A DNA stretch of 64,000 nucleotides from Enterocloster asparagiformis (GTDB lineage: Bacteria > Bacillota > Clostridia > Lachnospirales > Lachnospiraceae). Every line of letters begins with the position of its first letter. The first letter of the stretch is position 1. Positions 14,239 to 23,495 of the stretch are shown here, one piece after another. A model generated the notes under the pieces. That model did not search any database, was not told the DNA's origin, and saw only the letters and a program-made list of their open reading frames with translations. Position numbers and translations under genes: made by a program. Where the stretch lies: assembly GCA_018380885.1 (NCBI GenBank), contig JAGZSY010000002.1, positions 175,946 to 239,945 of the forward strand, given 5' to 3'.

Positions 14239-15321
14239 TCATCCGGCGACGCTTCTCTCCCACACCTCCAACGCCTGGTGCGCCTGATGACGGCGGCGCT
14301 CAAAGTGTTCCATGGCCTGGGGGCTGCCCGCGCATTTGGCGCGGCTTTTCTCAAAGCGCTCCTCCAGGGATACCTCCCGCTCGCCCTGCACCAGCTTGTC
14401 CGCAAGGTATACCACCAGCGTTTCGTCCGCCTGTTGTGGTATACAATCCAGATCGTGGTGCTGGCGCACAATCTCGGCCGCCAGGGGATAGCCGCTTCTC
14501 CTGAGGATATCGGCTCCCAGCCTGGCGTGGTCGGGCCGGCCTTTGCCGATGTCGTGGAGCAGGGCCGCGGAGCGGACCAGGCCCAGGTTCAGGCGGATTC
14601 CAGATTGGCCCAGCCTGACGGCCATATCCAGCGCTTTGCGGCTGACCGCCTCGCCGTGGCGCCGGACCGTCTCCGGCATACCGCTGGTCCGCAGCAGCCA
14701 CCTTAAGGCCTCTCCGTCCGGATACCCCTTCCCGCGGCTGCCGTTCAAGGCCAGAAGCCTCCGGTACTCCTCCCTGGTATCCGCGTCCGTGAAGCTTCCC
14801 TCGTCGTAGACCACCACATCCTTTACCAGGTCCCGCTGGCCCTTCAGGAAGCCCCGCAGCCCGTCGTCCCCTTGGTAATCCACGGCAAGCCTTACCATGT
14901 CTCGGTCCAGCTTCACCGGGTGGCCGTACCGGTCCATGCTTTTTGTTCGGACAATGGGGCTGTCGCACTCCATCACCCTGCGCACCGTGGCTCCAGTCAC
15001 CGCGGGCACGTCCACAGGCATGACCAGAATCTGGTCGCAGCGGTCCGCGATGGCCTCAAACCCCAGGCGCAGCGAGTCCATCATCTCTGAAGTCCTGTAG
15101 TTTACATTGCGGATCAGCACCACTCCGCTGTCCGCCAGCTCCCGCTCCAGCTCTTCCCCCCGAAATCCGGTCACCACGGCGATGGGGTCCGCCTGCTCCT
15201 CTTTTAGCATGGAAACCAGATGCCCGGCAACGCTGAACTCCCCGAAGGGAAGCAGGGGCTTGAAGGCCCCCATGCGGGAAGAAAGGCCCGCCGCCGCAAT
15301 CACTGCTCCTGTCCGCTTCAT
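14239..15321 (-). CDS. MocA-type nucleotidyltransferase fused to HD domain
   Basis: 360 aa from ATG 15321 (MKRTGAVIAAAGLSSRMG, TGGAGGA upstream); the longer frame to 15450 runs back into the scaffold gene. Residues 1-195 are a MobA/MocA-like NTP transferase (AAGLSSRMG nucleotide loop; MPVDVPAVTGATVRRVM). Residues 215-360 are an HD domain (SAALLHDIGKGRPDHARLGA with HD at 'LLHDIGKG'; IVRQHHDLD). MocA makes the cytosine-dinucleotide form of molybdopterin, the cofactor used by XDH-family enzymes, which fits its place behind the xdh-type genes. The role of the HD half is unknown. Confidence 0.87.
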   Translation of the reverse strand: MKRTGAVIAAAGLSSRMGAFKPLLPFGEFSVAGHLVSMLKEEQADPIAVVTGFRGEELERELADSGVVLIRNVNYRTSEMMDSLRLGFEAIADRCDQILVMPVDVPAVTGATVRRVMECDSPIVRTKSMDRYGHPVKLDRDMVRLAVDYQGDDGLRGFLKGQRDLVKDVVVYDEGSFTDADTREEYRRLLALNGSRGKGYPDGEALRWLLRTSGMPETVRRHGEAVSRKALDMAVRLGQSGIRLNLGLVRSAALLHDIGKGRPDHARLGADILRRSGYPLAAEIVRQHHDLDCIPQQADETLVVYLADKLVQGEREVSLEERFEKSRAKCAGSPQAMEHFERRRHQAHQALEVWERSVAG

Positions 15322-15388
15322 TCCACATTCCTCCATCCGCAGCGCCTGAAACGGCCGCCATGGCCGCGGCGCGTATTTTCTCCGGCCG

Positions 15389-15805
15389 CTACGCCTTCGC
15401 AGCCTCCCTGACCGCCATCTGTTCCATCCTGGCTGCCCGGCGGACCGCATAGTCCTTCAGCGTCTGTTTAAGGGCGATCTCAGCCATCTGCGCGCAGTGG
15501 GCGCTCTCCTTCTCCAGGCCGCCGAAAAACTCCGACAAGACGGCGGCGCTGATCAGATAGGCCTCCATCACCGGCTTGCCCAGGGCCAGCTCCGCCGCCC
15601 TGGCCGCGCAGGCCTTTAAGGGCGGGCAGGCGGACTCGGTAATCGTAAAGCGGCACTCGGTGATGATCTCCCGACTGGTGTTCACAAACATGGCCAGCAC
15701 ATCCCCGCAGCCCGGCTCTCTCGCCTCGCCTCTGCCCAGAAATGTCTCCGGCGCTCCCAGATTGTCCTTCTTTTCGCTGTATAAAATGATTTTCTCCCGA
15801 TCCAT
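15389..15805 (-). CDS. IscU/NifU-like Fe-S scaffold protein
   Basis: 138 aa from ATG 15805 (MDREKIILYSEKKDNLG, AAGGGA upstream); a frame to 15886 adds an Arg-rich stretch unlikely to be translated. The three scaffold Cys sites are present: GCGDVLAMFVN, SACPPLKACA and SAHCAQMAEIALKQTLKDY, matching IscU/NifU N-domains. It assembles [Fe-S] clusters. In this operon it could supply the many clusters of the Mo-hydroxylase complex. The central motif ACPPLKACA differs from the canonical GCG, so specialised use is likely. Confidence 0.78.
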   Translation of the reverse strand: MDREKIILYSEKKDNLGAPETFLGRGEAREPGCGDVLAMFVNTSREIITECRFTITESACPPLKACAARAAELALGKPVMEAYLISAAVLSEFFGGLEKESAHCAQMAEIALKQTLKDYAVRRAARMEQMAVREAAKA

Positions 15806-16058
15806 CTCATTATCCCTTTCACACGGCCGGCGGCGGGGGCGGACCCTTCCGGCCCGCCGCCGCATTTCACCGCTCCGGCCAGACATTTCACCGCCCGGCT
15901 CGATCCCTTGGCGGCTGCCCAGGCGTTTTTCTCAGTTCACCAACATCGTCCACCGTCCGCCTCGCCCAGGCCTTCATCCTCCGGCCAAGGCGCCGGCCGG
16001 AAGGCGGAGCCGCGGCCGGGCCGATCTCCCGGCCCCCGGCTCAAGCCGCACATCTCCC

Positions 16059-18425
16059 TTAGAATCCCAGGAACCGCCGCACCATCACCTTGGCCATCTC
16101 AATCTTGTATCCGTTCATCTCCAGCGGGATGGCATGGCGCAGCGCAATGTCCGCCGCCTCCCGTGCAGTCTCCTCATTCAGCGTTTTGCCGCGCAGGTAA
16201 TCCTCCGCCTCGGTCATCTTCATGGGGACGGGGGCCACGGCGCCCAGCACCAGGCTCACATCCTCCACCACGCCTCCCTCCAGGCGGTAGGTTCCGGCCA
16301 CCGCCAGCACCGCGAAATCGATGGATTTGCGGATGCGGTACTTGTCGTAAACCGCCACCGTACCAGGCTGGGGCTTCGGCACCACGATCTCCAGCACGAT
16401 CTCACCTGGCTTTAAGAGATCCTTCACCCGGGTGGAGCCGGCAAAGAACACGGCGCCGTCCAGCTCCCGCAGATTGGTTTTCACCTTAGCGCCGTAGGCG
16501 TAAAGCATGTTGGCCATGTCGCTGGGGTTTACCGCCAGGCAGCCGCAGTTAAAGCAGCGGCAGGCCTCACTGCGGATCGCCTCCTCCGGCAGATTTCCCA
16601 TGTCCTCCCGGTCCATGCCGCGCTCCTCAACCGGAAGCAGTGGGGACTTCACCGCGCTGTGGCTGTGACGGCATTCCGGATCAAAGGAAGCCAGCTTTTC
16701 CGCCTGTCGGCTCTCCTGGACCTGCTCCACCGCCAACGGCTCCAGGCCGCAGTAGCGGTTGATCGCCACGGCGGTCTCCTTGCCGGCCGCGATGGCCTTG
16801 ATCACCGTAGCCGGTCCGGTAGTCACGTCGCCGCCGGCGAAAATTCCGTCCACGCTGGTGCGGTTGCCCTCCAGGGCTTTGATTCTGCCGCGCTCCGTCT
16901 CCACCTCGTAGGCTCCGTTCAGGAACTCCAGGTCCGCCTTCTGGCCGATGGCCATGAGAATGATATCGGCGTCCAGGGTCAGCAGCTTGTCCTCGTCGTA
17001 GACGGGGTTGAAGCGGCCGGTTTCATCCAGCACCCTGGGACAGTGCTTGAACTCGATGCCGCTGACCTTTCCATCCTTGCGCAGCACTTCTTTGGGGCCC
17101 CAGCCGTTTTGAATGACCACACCCTCTTCCAGGGCGCGGGTGATCTCCTCCTCGTTGGCCGGCATGCCGTCCCGCTGCTCTAAGCAGACCATGGTCACGT
17201 TGGGAGCGCCCAGGCGCTTGGCGGTGATGGCCACGTCCATGGCCACATTGCCGCCGCCCACAACCACCACGTCGGAACCGGGTTTTTCCAGAATATAATT
17301 ATTTACGTCCACCAGGAATTCCAGGCCGAACCGGGTCAGCTCCTCGCCGGACAGGCCGATCAGAGGCCGCTTCCATGTTCCGGTGTCCAGCATCACGCCG
17401 TCGCTTTCCCTGTAAATCTCATCCAGCATGACATCGGTTCCCACCGCGCAGCCGCAGCGGAATACAACGCCCATGTTTTCCAGAGCCCCCACAAACCTGC
17501 GCACGATCTCCTTGGGCAGGCGGTAGGCCGGAATCGCATAGGACAGGCAGCCGCCCGCCTCCTTCTGTTTCTCGTACACGGTCACGCGGTAGCCGCTCTG
17601 GCGCAGATAGCAGGCCGCGGTCAGCCCGGCCGGTCCGGAGCCCACGATGGAGATGTGCTTTCCGTTCTCCTGCTCAGGTCCGGTCAGGAATTTGTCCGCG
17701 TGCTCCAGAATATAATCGCCCAGGAAGCGCTCGATGCTGCCCACGTTTAAGCTCTCGTCGTAGGTGTTGCGGTTGCAGCCCTCCATGCAGAAGTGGGCGC
17801 AGACGCGGCTGGTGATGGCCGGCATGGGGTTGACCTCCAGCAGCACCCTGGCCGCTTTCTCGTACTCTCCCGCCCGCACCATTTCCATGTAAGCGGAAAT
17901 GTCCGTGTGCGCCGGACATTTTCCCGTACAGGGAGTCTCACACACCTTGGCGGCCCCGAAAATGGAGTGGTACCGGTTCTCGCCCATCATGGCTGAGCAC
18001 AGGTGGCCGCTCTTTCTGGCGCAGTTGATCTTTCCGCCCAGGATGTCCGGGTAACGGTAATACCAGCAGCGGATATCCTGGCAGATATTGCCGGCCACCG
18101 TGGCCGTGTTGCGCAGGTTGGGCGTGGCCACGCTTTTCGCTGCGGTTTGCAGCGCGGGCCAAGAGCTGCCCACCACCGGCGAGTCCGCCACCTCCCGCAG
18201 GGTGGCCGCGGCGCCGATGTGCAGACCGTCCTCCTGCTCCTCAATGCGGTTTAATCCCGGGATGTGCTTTAAGTTCACCACCTGCCTGGGATATTCCGGC
18301 AGAAGGCCGTCCTTCAAAACGCCCAGAAGATCCGTGCCGCCGCCCATGGCCACAGTGCCCGGCTCCTTCAGAAAGCCGGCCGCCTCCTCGGCAGACGACG
18401 GGTTCATATATGTAAAATTCTTCAT
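16059..18425 (-). CDS. Mo-hydroxylase FAD subunit with an inserted GltD-like NAD(P)H oxidoreductase module
   Basis: 788 aa. Residues 1-160 are the first part of a CO-dehydrogenase/XDH-type FAD domain (GGGTDLLG, TVAGNICQDIRC), with C115, C120, C135 and C143 in the loop that carries a [4Fe-4S] cluster in 4-hydroxybenzoyl-CoA reductase. At C162 the chain switches to a complete GltD-like module: CxxxCxxxCP Fe-S motif, C209/C213/C217, FAD-binding GSGPAG at 262, NAD(P)-binding GGGNVAMD at 390, GGDVTTGPATVIKAI at 531. At CRCFNCGC (622) the FAD domain resumes (NPSDMANMLYAYGA), and CO_deh_flav_C closes it (about 680-788). Normal subunits are about 290 aa. The insertion should wire NAD(P)H to the Mo enzyme. 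Its start abuts the xdhA-like stop. Confidence 0.9.
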   Translation of the reverse strand: MKNFTYMNPSSAEEAAGFLKEPGTVAMGGGTDLLGVLKDGLLPEYPRQVVNLKHIPGLNRIEEQEDGLHIGAAATLREVADSPVVGSSWPALQTAAKSVATPNLRNTATVAGNICQDIRCWYYRYPDILGGKINCARKSGHLCSAMMGENRYHSIFGAAKVCETPCTGKCPAHTDISAYMEMVRAGEYEKAARVLLEVNPMPAITSRVCAHFCMEGCNRNTYDESLNVGSIERFLGDYILEHADKFLTGPEQENGKHISIVGSGPAGLTAACYLRQSGYRVTVYEKQKEAGGCLSYAIPAYRLPKEIVRRFVGALENMGVVFRCGCAVGTDVMLDEIYRESDGVMLDTGTWKRPLIGLSGEELTRFGLEFLVDVNNYILEKPGSDVVVVGGGNVAMDVAITAKRLGAPNVTMVCLEQRDGMPANEEEITRALEEGVVIQNGWGPKEVLRKDGKVSGIEFKHCPRVLDETGRFNPVYDEDKLLTLDADIILMAIGQKADLEFLNGAYEVETERGRIKALEGNRTSVDGIFAGGDVTTGPATVIKAIAAGKETAVAINRYCGLEPLAVEQVQESRQAEKLASFDPECRHSHSAVKSPLLPVEERGMDREDMGNLPEEAIRSEACRCFNCGCLAVNPSDMANMLYAYGAKVKTNLRELDGAVFFAGSTRVKDLLKPGEIVLEIVVPKPQPGTVAVYDKYRIRKSIDFAVLAVAGTYRLEGGVVEDVSLVLGAVAPVPMKMTEAEDYLRGKTLNEETAREAADIALRHAIPLEMNGYKIEMAKVMVRRFLGF

Positions 18426-20717
18426 TTATTTTCCCTCCTTGTCCTTCAGCGCCTGTATCACCTTGGCGGGCGAAAACGGATACGAGTTCAGCTTGATGCC
18501 GCAAGCGTTGTAGATAGCCATGCGGATGGCCGGACCGCCCGGCGCCAGCAGCGGCTCGCCTACGCCGACCGCGCCGAAGGGGTAGTCGTTGTCGCTGTTC
18601 TTCATGGATTCCAGCACAATGTGGTCATGGTTCACCACGTCGTTAAAGGTCCTGGTCTTGTAGTCGATGTTGCTGGGATTTAACACCCGGTAGTCGTTGG
18701 GATCCCAGACAGTCTCCTCCATGCAGGCGATATCGATGCCAGCGAAGAAGGACTGCAGCTGGTTCTTTAAGGGCAGCGGATTCACGATCACGCCCGCGTC
18801 GGAGCCGCCGAAGTGGTCCACAATGGAGAAGGTGCCCATTTCCAAATCCACCTCCACCTCCACAAACTGCAGATGGAAGATCGTGCTGTTGTGCACGCCC
18901 TCAAAGTGTCCGCAGCCGGTAACGCTGTCCACCTTGCCCATCAGGTGCGGGAACAGCAGGTAGACCTCCTCGGGGTTGCTCAGGCGGTAAACGCGGCCGC
19001 CCTTAAAGCCCAGATCGTCCTCCGGAACGCCGAATTTCTCATGGGCGATCTGATAAAGCTTGCGCTTCACATCCTCGCAGGCCCGCTTGGCCACGATGCC
19101 GCCGCAGTAGGTGGACCGGGAGCCCGTGGAGCCGAAGTCCGGAGGCGTCATGCCCGTGTCCGCGTCTGATACCCGGATGCTCTCCAGGGGCATATCCAAC
19201 TCCTCGGCCACGATCTTTAACATGACGTCCCTGGTTCCCGCGCCGAACTCCGCCATACAGGTGGAGAGGTAGACGGCGCCCAGACCGGTCAGGGTCACGT
19301 TGGCGTTGCTCGGCTTGCCGCCTGTGTCGGAGTGGCCCGCCGCGCCCACTCCCACGCCTCTCACCTTCTTGCCGTCCGGCGACACCCAGGTGGGCACGCC
19401 CCAGCCTTTAAAACGGTCGTTCCAGCGGAAGGCCGCGGCCGTTTTCACCACCAGATCGCTCCAGTCCGCCGTCTTGTTGTTCTGCCAGGGGTGGGGCTCC
19501 GCCATGGCGTTGTGATAGCGGTCGCCCTTCTTCATGGCGTTTTTCACCAGGTACTCCACCGGGTCCACATCCAGCTTGATGCAGGCTTCCATAATCGCCT
19601 GGCTCACCAGCGCGGTGCTCTCCATGTATCCGTAGCCGCGGAAGGACCCTGAGGGCATGTGGTTGGTGACCACCACCTCCGCGTCGTATTTCTTGTTGTT
19701 GGTCTTGCACAGAATCGGCAGGGTGTTGGTTCCCACCGCCAGCATGAACTCCTGGGTGGAGGCGCAGACGCCCGCGTCCGCGTACTGGCGCATCTCCACA
19801 GCGCTTGCCAGACCGTCCTTCTTCATGCCGAACTTGATGTGCGCCTTTGTCACCATGCGGTTCTGATGGATGGCGAAATGCTCCTCCTTGCTGTAACAGA
19901 ACATCACGGGACAGCGGGCCGCCTTCGCCATGACGGCGGTAAACACCAGGGGCTGCACGTTGCCGCTGTAGAGCTTGGAGCCGAAGCTGCCTCCCACGGC
20001 CGGAGCGGTCAGCCGTACCTGCTCATAGGGCACGTTCAGGGCGGAGGCCACGTTCTGATGGCAGTAGGCGGGGGCCGCTGCCGAGGCGATAAAGTTGTAG
20101 GTGTCGTCCTCGTACCAGCAGATGGTCACCGGCGGCTCCACGGGCAGCGGGTTCTGCCCGTTCTCGATGGAGGAGTCCACCTCCACGATCACGTCGGACT
20201 CCGCAAAGCCCTGTTCCAGATCGCCCACCTCAAAATTCAGGTTGTTTTTGTGGGGCGCGATATTTCCGGGCAGCTCCGGGTAGAGCTGGGGCGCATCCTC
20301 TGCCAGGGCTTCCTCGATGGTGAACACGGGCTTTAACACCTGGTACTTCACCTCGATGAGCTTCATGGCCTCCATGGCGATATCCTCGGTCTCCGCCACC
20401 ACCAGCGCCACCGCGTCGCCCACAAAGCGCACGTACTCGTCCATCAGGTGGTGATGCTTCGGCGGCGTAAAGCCGTTGGTGATGAAAATATTCCGGTCCA
20501 CATCCTTCCAGGTGATCACAGCGGAAACGCCGGGATAAGCCTTGGCCTTCTCCGTGTTGATCTCCTCCAGCTTCGCATAGGGATAGGGGCTCCTCAAGAT
20601 TTTTCCGTACTGCATGCCGGGCTTTTTGAAATCCCCTGTGTACATCGCCTTGCCCGTCACAATCTGCGGGCCCAACAGGCGTTTTGTCTCCTTGCCAACA
20701 TACTTTAATTCGCTCAT
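18426..20717 (-). CDS. XDH-family molybdenum-binding subunit
   Basis: 763 aa, usual length. The N-terminal a/b hammerhead (about 15-125) is followed by two Mo-cofactor domains with GGSFGSK, PSGSFRGYGYMES, FGSTGSRS and the C-terminal AVGVGEPLLAPGGPAI, whose Glu is the catalytic base. It binds molybdopterin cytosine dinucleotide and hydroxylates or reductively dehydroxylates an organic substrate. The substrate cannot be read from the sequence; it need not be xanthine. Start ATG 20717 overlaps the 2Fe-2S gene stop (ATGA) and GGGAGGAG precedes it. Confidence 0.94.
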   Translation of the reverse strand: MSELKYVGKETKRLLGPQIVTGKAMYTGDFKKPGMQYGKILRSPYPYAKLEEINTEKAKAYPGVSAVITWKDVDRNIFITNGFTPPKHHHLMDEYVRFVGDAVALVVAETEDIAMEAMKLIEVKYQVLKPVFTIEEALAEDAPQLYPELPGNIAPHKNNLNFEVGDLEQGFAESDVIVEVDSSIENGQNPLPVEPPVTICWYEDDTYNFIASAAAPAYCHQNVASALNVPYEQVRLTAPAVGGSFGSKLYSGNVQPLVFTAVMAKAARCPVMFCYSKEEHFAIHQNRMVTKAHIKFGMKKDGLASAVEMRQYADAGVCASTQEFMLAVGTNTLPILCKTNNKKYDAEVVVTNHMPSGSFRGYGYMESTALVSQAIMEACIKLDVDPVEYLVKNAMKKGDRYHNAMAEPHPWQNNKTADWSDLVVKTAAAFRWNDRFKGWGVPTWVSPDGKKVRGVGVGAAGHSDTGGKPSNANVTLTGLGAVYLSTCMAEFGAGTRDVMLKIVAEELDMPLESIRVSDADTGMTPPDFGSTGSRSTYCGGIVAKRACEDVKRKLYQIAHEKFGVPEDDLGFKGGRVYRLSNPEEVYLLFPHLMGKVDSVTGCGHFEGVHNSTIFHLQFVEVEVDLEMGTFSIVDHFGGSDAGVIVNPLPLKNQLQSFFAGIDIACMEETVWDPNDYRVLNPSNIDYKTRTFNDVVNHDHIVLESMKNSDNDYPFGAVGVGEPLLAPGGPAIRMAIYNACGIKLNSYPFSPAKVIQALKDKEGK

Positions 20718-21241
20718 ACCTGCTCCTCCCTCTTTTTCCGGTTCTGATCCACATAGGACATAATGGATTCCACCGCCGTGTAATGGGTTCCGCAGCGGCA
20801 GTAATTACCGGCCAGCGCCTCCCGCACCTCTTCCTCCGTGGGCTCGGGATTTTCATTTAACAGCGCCTTGGCTGTCATGATCACGCCCGGGATGCAGAAG
20901 CCGCACTGGTAACCGCAGTTGTCCAGAAACGCCTGCTGCAGGCCGTCCAACTCCCCTGTGGCCCGGTCCGCCAGCCCCTCGATGGTGGTGATCTCCGAGC
21001 CGTCGCAGTCCATGGTCAGCGTCATGCAGGAGGTCACGGCCTTGCCGTCCATGATCACGGTACAGCAGCCGCAGGCTCCCTGGTCGCAGCCGATCTTGAG
21101 TCCGGTCAGCCCCAGGCGGTCCCGCAGGGTGTGGGCCAGCGTCTCGCTCTCCGGCATATCAGTCCTGCCGTCCCCCACCGGGATCTCATACTCCCTGCCG
21201 TTGACAGTGAGCGTGATGATTTTCTGAGTGATTTCTTTCAT
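20714..21241 (-). CDS. XDH-family [2Fe-2S] electron-transfer subunit
   Basis: 175 aa. Plant-type [2Fe-2S] motif GCDQGACGCCTV in the first half, helical [2Fe-2S] domain with QCGFCIPGVIMTA and NYCRCGTHY in the second: the two clusters that link the Mo site to FAD. Normal length for this subunit. AAAGGAGA lies upstream of ATG 21241; its 3' end overlaps the Mo-subunit start by 4 bp. Confidence 0.95.
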   Translation of the reverse strand: MKEITQKIITLTVNGREYEIPVGDGRTDMPESETLAHTLRDRLGLTGLKIGCDQGACGCCTVIMDGKAVTSCMTLTMDCDGSEITTIEGLADRATGELDGLQQAFLDNCGYQCGFCIPGVIMTAKALLNENPEPTEEEVREALAGNYCRCGTHYTAVESIMSYVDQNRKKREEQV

Positions 21242-21268: not shown

Positions 21269-22503
21269 CTATGGCTGCCGGTCATTCTTCACAAAGAGGC
21301 AGAACACCGCGGCGATAACGGAGCAGCCCAGGAAAATGTACCACACGAACGCATAATTTCCGGTCAGGTCGATGGCCCGGCCCACGATGATCGGCATGAT
21401 CAGGCTGGCCAGCTGGAACAGCAGGTTCTGGGTGGAAGCCGCCGTCGCCGTGTACCGCTCCCCGGCCAGGATCATGGCTGAGGTGGTATAGTGGGTGGAG
21501 GGCAGGTAGGAAATGGCTCCGTAGACACAGCCCACGGCGATCAGCCCCATATACCCTCTCTGCATGGAGAACAGCACTGTCATTACGCCCATGGCCGCGA
21601 GGTGACGATCAGGAAATTCCGGTGGGTCATGCGGCATTTTGACGCAATGGAACCGGACAGACAGGAGGCGATAATCCCCGCGATGCTGTAGCAGGTGATG
21701 ATCATGCCGCCCTGCACAGGCGTAAAGCCCAGGCTCTGGGCGTAGCGGTTGGTCCAGGTGGCGAAGCCCACGGTTACGAACATAAACATGAAGCCGCTGG
21801 CCCCCAGCAGAAGCTGCTGTTTGTTAGTAAAAAATCCCACTAGGCCTTCCAGCAGCCCGGCCTGTCCACCGGCTGTAGCGGCCGTCTGGGCCACCGCCGG
21901 GTTCTTTGCGGGCGCCGCGGCCGGCATTCTCTGGATGGGCTGTACAAACACCACCAGCAGAGCCACGATGATAACCGCGATGGCCGCCACGATCAGGAAC
22001 GTGTTTCTCCAGCCCACAGCCTGGTTTAAAGGCGCGCCGATGGACTGGGCCAGGGTGATGCCAAAGGGCGGCGAGGCCAGCACCACGCCCATGGCGGAGG
22101 CGCGCTTTTTCGGCTCAAAGGTGGTGGCGACCACTTTGGAGCACTGGGCCATCACGCAGCCGCTGCTGACTCCTGTGATCACGCGGATGATCAGTCCCAT
22201 CTGATGGCTGGTGACCAGCGACATAGCCGCCGTCATCACGCCTCCCAGCACGGTACAGGCGATGAGGATGTACTTGGGCTGATACTTATCCGCCATAATT
22301 CCACCCGGAATCTGGGTCACCAGATAACCGGCAAAAAATGCCGACATGTAAAGTCCCGCCTGTGTGGCGTTGATCCCGAATTCATTTGACACGTCCGCCA
22401 TCAGAGGGCTCCAGATATAGCGGCTCAAAAATGTAAATGTAAATGCAAGCGTGACTGCCGCGAGGGACAGATAAGGATTGCGCTTCTTTTGTTCTGCTCC
22501 CAT
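21269..22503 (-). pseudogene. MFS transporter interrupted by a frameshift
   Basis: From ATG 22503 (AAAGGAG upstream) an MFS protein reads 300 residues (MGAEQKKRNPYLSLAAVTLA; GGIMADKYQPKY motif in loop 2-3), then stops at 21583 after CRMTHRNFLIVTSRPWA. The missing helices continue in the next frame (AAMGVMTVLFSMQRGYMG) to the stop at 21269, which together would give a normal ~410-aa, 12-helix transporter. A one-base deletion near 21590-21610 explains it. It is first in the Mo-hydroxylase operon and probably carried the substrate or product. Either a real inactivation or a sequencing error. Confidence 0.85.
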
Positions 22504-22757: not shown

Positions 22758-22786
22758 TTGCACCCAAGGGTGTTTCCCGCTATAAT
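22758..22786 (+). promoter_or_regulatory. Promoter of the tetR gene
   Basis: TTGCAC (22758-22763), 17-bp spacer, TATAAT (22781-22786). A CACCC-AA-GGGTG palindrome overlaps the -35. The leader that follows holds a GCGCTTGC...GCAAGCGC hairpin at 22799-22824, 20 bp before the start codon. Confidence 0.75.
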
Positions 22787-22844
22787 AGAACAAAGAGCGC
22801 GCTTGCCCGTGGAGCTGCAAGCGCACAGAAAACGGAGAATCCAT

Positions 22845-23495
22845 ATGGCAAATGAGACAGAGAATACAAACTTAAAAGAACAGATCCTCCAGGTTGCGGG
22901 CCGCATGTTTCTGGAGTACGGTTACAGCGGCACCACGTTTCAAAAGATCGCCGATGAGCTGGGCATCACCAAAGGGAGCATCACCTATCACTTTAAAAAC
23001 AAGTTCCTGATCATGGAGATTTTTATTGACGATTTCTTCAACCAGCTGAAGGCCTTCATCGACTCCTTCCCTGATGAGTACCAAAATATTTACTGGCGCT
23101 ACTGCGTCATGTACATCTACGCCTACCGCCGCATCATGCGCACGCCGCGGAATATTGAGCTGTTTTACCACAAGGATCAGCAGACCCAGTGGCAGACCCA
23201 CAAGATTAACGTGGTATCCCACATCTACGAGCGGATCGAGCAGGATTTCCACAAGTCCTACGATATGACGGACCTGCAGATGAAGGCTTACATAGACATG
23301 GGCGCGCGCTCCAAGCTCTTCCTGGTATACCAGGAGAATCCGGGCGTGATGGACCTGGACCAGTATTGTTATTACCACATTTATCTGGTGGGCGCCCTGT
23401 GCAAGCTGGACGAGCAGACGATTCAGGAGAATATCCGCAGCGCTTTTCAGTTCGCGGACAGCCATGAGCCGGAAATTTCGTCGATTTTCCAGTAG
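22845..23495 (+). CDS. TetR family regulator, divergent from the Mo-hydroxylase operon
   Basis: 216 aa from ATG 22845 (MANETENTNLKEQILQVAG; CGGAGA upstream). The promoter at 22758-22786 rules out the longer frame from 22758. N-terminal HTH: TTFQKIADELGITKGSITYHF, a classic TetR recognition region. The ligand domain has several Tyr/Phe and fits an aromatic effector, though this is inference. It is the obvious candidate to bind the palindrome at 22576-22601 and control the operon opposite. Confidence 0.9.
   Translation: MANETENTNLKEQILQVAGRMFLEYGYSGTTFQKIADELGITKGSITYHFKNKFLIMEIFIDDFFNQLKAFIDSFPDEYQNIYWRYCVMYIYAYRRIMRTPRNIELFYHKDQQTQWQTHKINVVSHIYERIEQDFHKSYDMTDLQMKAYIDMGARSKLFLVYQENPGVMDLDQYCYYHIYLVGALCKLDEQTIQENIRSAFQFADSHEPEISSIFQ

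Follow-up and report, generated by a model that had tools for sequence, protein, structure and literature searches.

Two kinds of described enzyme stand closest to the system reported here. The first belongs to the xanthine oxidase (XO) family of molybdenum (Mo) enzymes, within which 4-hydroxybenzoyl-CoA reductase (4-HBCR; HcrABC of Thauera aromatica, structure 1rm6) is, like the enzyme described below, composed of three subunits, and takes its electrons from ferredoxin (PMC12771579; papers are given by PubMed Central (PMC) number). In Enterocloster, the XO-family enzyme urolithin C dehydroxylase (Ucdh, UcdCFO) carries out an NADH-driven reduction (PMC12771579). The second kind comprises the GltD-like NAD(P)H modules of NfnB, StnC and NfnABC (9bov, 9n5u, 8oh5, 5jca), that of StnC relaying electrons from NADPH by way of FAD and [4Fe-4S] clusters (PMC10482914). 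In E. coli the two kinds adjoin as separate genes, the GltD-like ygfK lying beside ygfM-xdhD, which encode XO-family FAD and Mo subunits; XdhD-YgfM reduces uric acid with NADH, and the following intermediate of the reductive uric acid pathway is handled by YgfK together with SsnA (PMC12507026), the domains being named in separate E. coli proteins (PMC6637259). Here we describe, in a stretch of 64,000 nucleotides from Enterocloster asparagiformis (contig JAGZSY010000002.1, positions 175,946 to 239,945; hereafter the window), a single gene in which a GltD/NfnB-type module is inserted into the FAD subunit of an XO-family enzyme, and we suggest that its product is part of a likely NADH-fed Mo reductase. 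The gene and its parts are as follows.

16059..18425, minus strand: fused FAD/GltD-type subunit, 788 aa (single open reading frame (ORF); Pfam, alignments, structure model)
17952..18425, minus strand: N-terminal part of the XO-type FAD subunit, residues 1-158 (Pfam FAD_binding_5; alignment to 1rm6_B and uninterrupted relatives)
Inside that N-terminal part (17952..18425), minus strand: proposed Fe-S ligands C120, C135 and C143 (alignments)
16542..17951, minus strand: inserted GltD/NfnB-type module, residues about 159-628 (Pfam, structure model, alignments)
Inside 16542..17951, minus strand: motifs of the insert, FAD motif GSGPAG and NAD motif GGGNVAMD
Inside 16542..17951, minus strand: proposed Fe-S ligands of the insert, C166, C170, C209, C213, C217 and E232, and C-terminal C624 and C627
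17178..17186, minus strand: CLE, residues 414-416, at the NADP-binding YRR site of NfnB/GltD
16539..16559, minus strand: RCFNCGC, residues 623-629, junction of insert and FAD subunit (alignments, pattern counts)
16062..16541, minus strand: C-terminal part of the XO-type FAD subunit, residues 629-788 (Pfam CO_deh_flav_C, alignments)

Across these 788 residues, Pfam and NCBIfam find a GltD-like module flanked on either side by part of an XO-type FAD subunit, and structure prediction gives one HcrB-type fold interrupted by a module of NfnABC/StnC type. A preliminary description of this DNA had proposed a full GltD-like module inside the subunit, which is borne out with the boundaries now near residues 159 and 628. 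The same module follows the N-terminal domain of the large subunit in StnC and NfnABC and makes up the whole subunit in NfnB, whereas here it is inserted in an FAD subunit. The conserved homologues and the single interrupted fold led us to reject both an artefact of assembly and a mere concatenation of two proteins, and the fused architecture is real and conserved. The insert holds the Pfam domains of a GltD/NfnB-type module (Fer4_20 and two Rossmann parts) and both of its [4Fe-4S] ligand sets, two of the eight ligands being placed by inference, which supports its being a complete NAD(P)H:acceptor module. Its Fe-S, FAD and NAD motifs are kept in 48 aligned homologues; this argues against the insert being a structural or regulatory passenger with NADH taken directly by the XO-type FAD, a suggestion that the use of NADH by Ucdh and by XdhD-YgfM, the latter with an uninterrupted FAD subunit, might encourage and that we regard as scarcely credible.

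Relatives in which the two parts are neighbouring genes were sought, and none was found in the loci compared. Beside GltD-only genes, no Mo or iron-sulfur (FeS) subunit gene occurred in any of 70 loci within the sequence stretches examined, a non-random sample, since peptide patterns taken from the query served to find the loci and many of the stretches are short; on this count, origin from a neighbouring ygfK-like gene was rejected. Likewise, six 19-kb loci with an uninterrupted FAD gene gave no GltD-like BLAST match. E. coli holds only distant relatives: YgfK is 28% identical to insert residues 165-635, and BLAST at 1e-3 does not match YgfM to the fused protein. YgfK is not known to feed XdhD. 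The uninterrupted FAD subunits closest to the fused one come mostly from organisms that are anaerobes by name (e.g., P0144 of Peptococcaceae, P0178 of Moorellales, P0215 of Halodesulfovibrio), are 43-49% identical over 91-100% of the joined FAD parts and lack the GltD insert. Three uninterrupted subunits (P0168, P0188, P0214) have about 25 additional residues at the insertion loop, thus the loop tolerates insertions.

The insertion point could be placed with respect to the ligands of a cluster. HcrB carries its extra [4Fe-4S] loop at the same place of the FAD subunit, as the preliminary description had noted, but the ligand set proposed there has to be revised. In a hand-picked alignment of 18 fused and 22 other rows, C120, C135, C143 and C629 are cysteines in all 18 fused and all 18 loop-bearing uninterrupted rows, a conservation that is partly selection, as the uninterrupted rows were picked from matches to the query holding these cysteines; the loop is absent from four classical FAD subunits in the same alignment. 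By phmmer, C120, C135 and C143 align with C122, C138 and C146 of HcrB (1rm6_B), and HcrB C155 falls opposite Y152; by eye, CYATY of HcrB fits CLAVN, which starts at C629. HcrB C122, C138, C146 and C155 are reportedly the cluster ligands in the crystal structure paper (Unciuleac 2004). C629 is also aligned with the corresponding cysteine of 5y6q_B and of the uninterrupted relatives. Since all four cysteines are shared with uninterrupted relatives, the insert separates the third from the fourth ligand of a single [4Fe-4S] cluster, and C629 is proposed as the fourth. C115, which had been counted among the ligands, is an unlikely one on the alignment of fused and uninterrupted rows.

The insert carries further proposed ligands. 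C166, C170, C209, C213, C217 and E232, kept in 18/18 fused rows, correspond to C47, C51, C90, C96, C100 and E117 of NfnB, where the other distal ligands are C39 and C42 (PMC7596348); at the site of E232, StnC has K170 and NfnB a glutamate (PMC10482914). The CxxC that would stand just upstream of C166, in the place of NfnB C39/C42, is absent from all 141 fused proteins, and every one of them has RCxxCG on the C side of the insert; these 141 sequences (140 in other counts) include many near-identical E. asparagiformis-like variants. A C-side CxxC is also present in 67/72 GltD-only proteins, the other five being three cut by contig ends, YgfT with an N-side CxxC, and one with RCACC, outside the pattern. 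The missing N-side CxxC and the C-side RCxxCG lead us to assign C624 and C627 to the distal cluster, which they would complete. Both ends of the module would then meet at one cluster, and C627-G-C629 would link the insert's distal cluster to that of the FAD subunit.

Two degenerate paralogues beside fused operons, of 563 aa (L123:7645-9336, minus strand, genome G006) and 525 aa (L104:14337-15914, plus strand, genome G004), both keep all 11 cysteines of the three proposed [4Fe-4S] clusters. Neither has the NAD domain or the GGGTDL stretch of the XO-type part any longer, and the insert's FAD motif reads GCGPAG in the former and is gone from the latter. The retention of the 11 cysteines despite these losses suggests separate selection on the Fe-S set as a unit.

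The nucleotide used by the insert was approached through the YRR site. CLE stands at this site in 138/140 fused proteins, with E there in 139 of the 140, versus YRR in 70/72 GltD-only proteins; of the remaining two, YgfT has YRR one place off and one reads CLE. The latter (L073:9527-12742, 1071 aa) comes from a Dehalococcoidia metagenome-assembled genome. An acidic residue at the YRR position is a usual mark of NAD specificity. The YRR motif of NfnB binds the NADP phosphate; in the related DsrL family the YRR-bearing protein that was tested used NADP(H) only, and NAD(H) was preferred or required by the two that lack the motif (PMC7596348). The replacement of YRR by CLE, taken with the DsrL biochemistry, makes NADH, not NADPH, the predicted donor, in place of the NADPH module first described. 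The modules of GltD, NfnB and StnC use NADP(H) (StnC: PMC10482914) and have the identical fold, and NfnB (PMC7596348), StnC and NfnABC all read YRR; against the CLE counts and the acidic residue, NADPH as the donor is nevertheless quite improbable.

The fused gene is one member of an operon, whose other genes and neighbours are listed here.

18426..20717, minus strand: Mo (molybdopterin) catalytic subunit, 763 aa (Pfam; best match in the Protein Data Bank (PDB) 1rm6_A)
20714..21241, minus strand: 2x[2Fe-2S] subunit, 175 aa (Pfam, NCBIfam)
21269..22503, minus strand: major facilitator superfamily (MFS) transporter, frame broken in the window, leaving two ORFs (306 and 122 aa) in different frames
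22758..23495, plus strand: TetR-family regulator, divergent, start codon uncertain (Pfam; matched in 9/9 loci)
15389..15886, minus strand: NifU-like Fe-S scaffold, start uncertain (Pfam; matched in 7/7 loci reaching that far)
14239..15450, minus strand: MobA/MocA-like nucleotidyltransferase with HD domain, start uncertain (Pfam, NCBIfam)

The start of the fused gene abuts the end of the Mo gene, which in turn overlaps the [2Fe-2S] gene, thus the three genes are probably transcribed together as FeS-Mo-FAD, an order also found in all five uninterrupted loci with a Mo gene. A unit made of a divergent TetR gene and MFS-FeS-Mo-FAD/GltD-NifU recurs in nine loci, from Enterocloster, Hungatella, Clostridium sp. 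AT4, Gemmiger, Angelakisella and another member of the Oscillospiraceae. TetR, FeS, Mo and fused genes are matched in all nine, MFS in eight, and NifU in the seven that reach far enough; other flanking genes of the window are mostly unmatched in the nine loci except in L001, in an annotation that left out 32 oddly numbered edge ORFs. The MFS gene is intact in L001 (412 aa), unlike the window copy. The 14239..15450 product is DVU_1551-like at 306.1 bits, below the NCBIfam cut-off of 315, and is a probable cofactor maturation protein; its gene also lies downstream of the fused operon in L001 and L007. On the other side, next to the TetR gene, a serine dehydratase alpha-chain-like gene (PF03313; 23583-24851, minus strand) has a counterpart, 91% alike, in the same place in L001.

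Within the genus of E. asparagiformis, 16 fused genes were found in 10/17 genomes (E <= 1e-150), matching from residue 1-2 to at least residue 781. At E <= 1e-130, the fused gene occurs in at least 5/200 genomes of the family and at least 4/398 of the phylum, counts that include E. asparagiformis and are lower bounds from at most five and at most two scored candidates per genome, respectively; one family match spans residues 1-456 only, and one protein search covered the best 120 of 851 passing proteins. In quick trees, built without bootstrap and carrying long-branch warnings, the FAD parts of the fused proteins all fall on one side of a branch with a Shimodaira-Hasegawa-like approximate likelihood ratio test value of 90, which is compatible with one insertion event.

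Membership of the XO family follows from Ald_Xan_dh_C, MoCoBD_1, MoCoBD_2, FAD_binding_5 and CO_deh_flav_C, all above the Pfam gathering scores, and from Fer2_2 and Fer2 of the small subunit, which also exceed theirs; Fer2_3 falls just short there. The Mo subunit has 1rm6_A as its best PDB match (E 1.1e-67). HcrABC differs in that its FAD subunit has no insert, and all three window subunits fall below the 4-HBCR cut-offs of NCBIfam (TIGR03193, 158.6 vs 257.8 bits; TIGR03194, 343.9 vs 994.55; TIGR03195, 139.5 vs 404.55). Among all 13 NCBIfam matches of the Mo subunit, each below its cut-off, XdhA ranks first (380.6 vs 780 bits). The fused subunit is best matched by NF009410 (PRK12771 NAD(P)-binding protein; 406.5 vs 516 bits) and also misses the YgfK cut-off (TIGR03315; 267.1 vs 835.3 bits). 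The Mo subunit of another fused operon, 26.0% identical to HcrA, gave no PDB match at E 1e-60.

We think it reasonably probable that the operon encodes a cytoplasmic three-subunit XO-family Mo enzyme that uses its NADH module to reduce an imported substrate. NADH would reduce the FAD of the inserted module, and electrons would pass singly through the insert's proximal [4Fe-4S] cluster (C170, C209, C213, E232), the distal cluster (C166 and C217, with C624 and C627 from the insert's far end), the FAD-subunit cluster (C120, C135, C143, C629), the XO-type FAD and the two [2Fe-2S] clusters to Mo. The reaction at Mo would be the reduction of a small organic molecule and would most likely strip it of an oxygen function. 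Aromatic and heteroaromatic acids are plausible substrates, and phenolic dehydroxylation is a guess. The preliminary description had NAD(P)H electrons entering through the insert to reach the Mo site; the complete module and the conserved ligands make a continuous path from the insert into the XO-type FAD subunit plausible, though for NADH rather than NADPH. Organic-anion and aromatic-acid transporters are among the best NCBIfam matches of the 306-aa MFS piece, none of which reaches its cut-off; this suggests import of an organic acid.

Two lines of indirect evidence favor reduction. An AMP-binding ligase gene, as expected beside 4-HBCR-like reductases, lies at or one gene from three of four uninterrupted sister operons scanned (L145, L147, L148); four of the five such operons with a Mo gene had neighbors partly scanned (four proteins at L145, one at L146, two at L147, three at L148, and none at L149 or L144). 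No such ligase was found among nine window proteins scanned with Pfam. The other line is the precedent of NADH-driven reduction in the XO family by Ucdh (PMC12771579) and XdhD-YgfM (PMC12507026). The reductive direction first proposed thus has indirect support, but the [4Fe-4S] loop is no proof of it, because the aldehyde-oxidizing PaoABC carries the loop too (PMC13404670); the cysteine pattern of the fused subunit recurs in PaoB and in the aldehyde oxidase 5y6q_B.

Several points weigh against a reductive NADH-fed enzyme. Besides PaoABC, DsrL proteins of the NAD(H) type, without YRR, occur mainly in oxidative systems, with electrons going to NAD+ (PMC7596348). The window Mo subunit lies outside the HcrA clade in a quick maximum-likelihood tree (32 rows, long-branch warnings naming HcrA). 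XdhD-YgfM takes NADH with an FAD subunit of 259 aa, so the insert is unnecessary for NADH-driven reduction as such. The structure model has a predicted local distance difference test score below 50 at residues 117-153 and 625-633, E232 is lost from both degenerate paralogues, and the window copy of the operon has an interrupted MFS gene. Finally, in the Mo tree the fused-operon Mo subunits need two changes, with uninterrupted sisters nested among them, so that loss or subunit exchange may have occurred.

The same wiring could run in reverse, with the Mo subunit hydroxylating or oxidizing an imported substrate and the insert reducing NAD+. Most XO-family enzymes oxidize, and the PaoABC, 5y6q_B and DsrL comparisons and the first rank of XdhA would all accord with this. 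An ordinary XO-type FAD subunit, as in xanthine dehydrogenase, is however sufficient to reduce NAD+ without an extra module. The hosts are anaerobes, which profit from disposing of NADH. Together with the CoA-ligase-type genes at or near the three sister operons, these considerations make oxidation unlikely.

A further alternative is flavin-based bifurcation, in which the insert FAD would split NADH electrons, one going to Mo for an exergonic reductive dehydroxylation and the other to ferredoxin, defining a self-wired class of Mo reductases. The enzyme would have two flavins and five predicted Fe-S clusters, the module is akin to NfnB, and R302, matched via StnC R239 to the arginine at FAD N5 of NfnB, is R in 140/140. 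The equivalent arginine is, however, kept at the non-bifurcating FAD site of StnC (PMC10482914) and in 70/72 GltD-only proteins, and the Pfam scan shows no ferredoxin-type domain beyond those named. We find bifurcation extremely improbable, and equally so its combination with the Fe-S-keeping paralogues L123 and L104 as an exit wire; if it were true, reducing a dietary or host aromatic would conserve energy.

The proposed NADH-fed reductase resembles Ucdh in its family, in NADH-driven reduction and in genus. Ucdh at >90% identity is reported only in Enterocloster species, others being <60% (PMC12771579), and relatives of the window-type Mo subunit reach 79% in Angelakisella and 76% in Gemmiger; the window operon is thus probably not Ucdh, an identity rejected on the reported distribution rather than by sequence comparison. 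A non-fused XO operon of E. asparagiformis (L102:2420-6155; order FAD-FeS-Mo) has a Mo subunit 31.8% identical to HcrA and placed beside it in a tree that carries long-branch warnings; the identity of Ucdh to HcrA is reported as 32.7%, and the Ucdh cluster as including regulators and a methyltransferase (PMC12771579). The L102 operon adjoins a fused operon (L102:8700-13947) and genes for a TylF-type methyltransferase and a Crp-type regulator, a neighborhood that recurs in G006 and G011 (L121, L122), where the non-fused Mo subunit is 97-98% alike (G011 from a cut ORF). That it is a better Ucdh candidate than the window operon remains a guess, since another E. asparagiformis Mo subunit, L097, is also 32.7% identical to HcrA but groups with E. 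coli XdhA. Just downstream of another fused operon, a further non-fused XO operon (L103:14688-18434) has the most HcrA-like Mo subunit tested (35.6%).

Our searches of the open-licence PMC literature found no description of an XO-family enzyme with an NADH dehydrogenase module inside its FAD subunit. The enzyme would add to the few known XO-family reductases, namely 4-HBCR, Ucdh, XdhD-YgfM and, cited in PMC12771579, an enzyme that cleaves the C-S bond of ergothioneine. NADH is apparently wired directly to a Mo site in this gut bacterium, the RCxxCGC junction would itself bridge two Fe-S clusters, and the fused architecture offers a signature by which a family of probable NADH-driven Mo reductases can be followed through the sequences of gut anaerobes.

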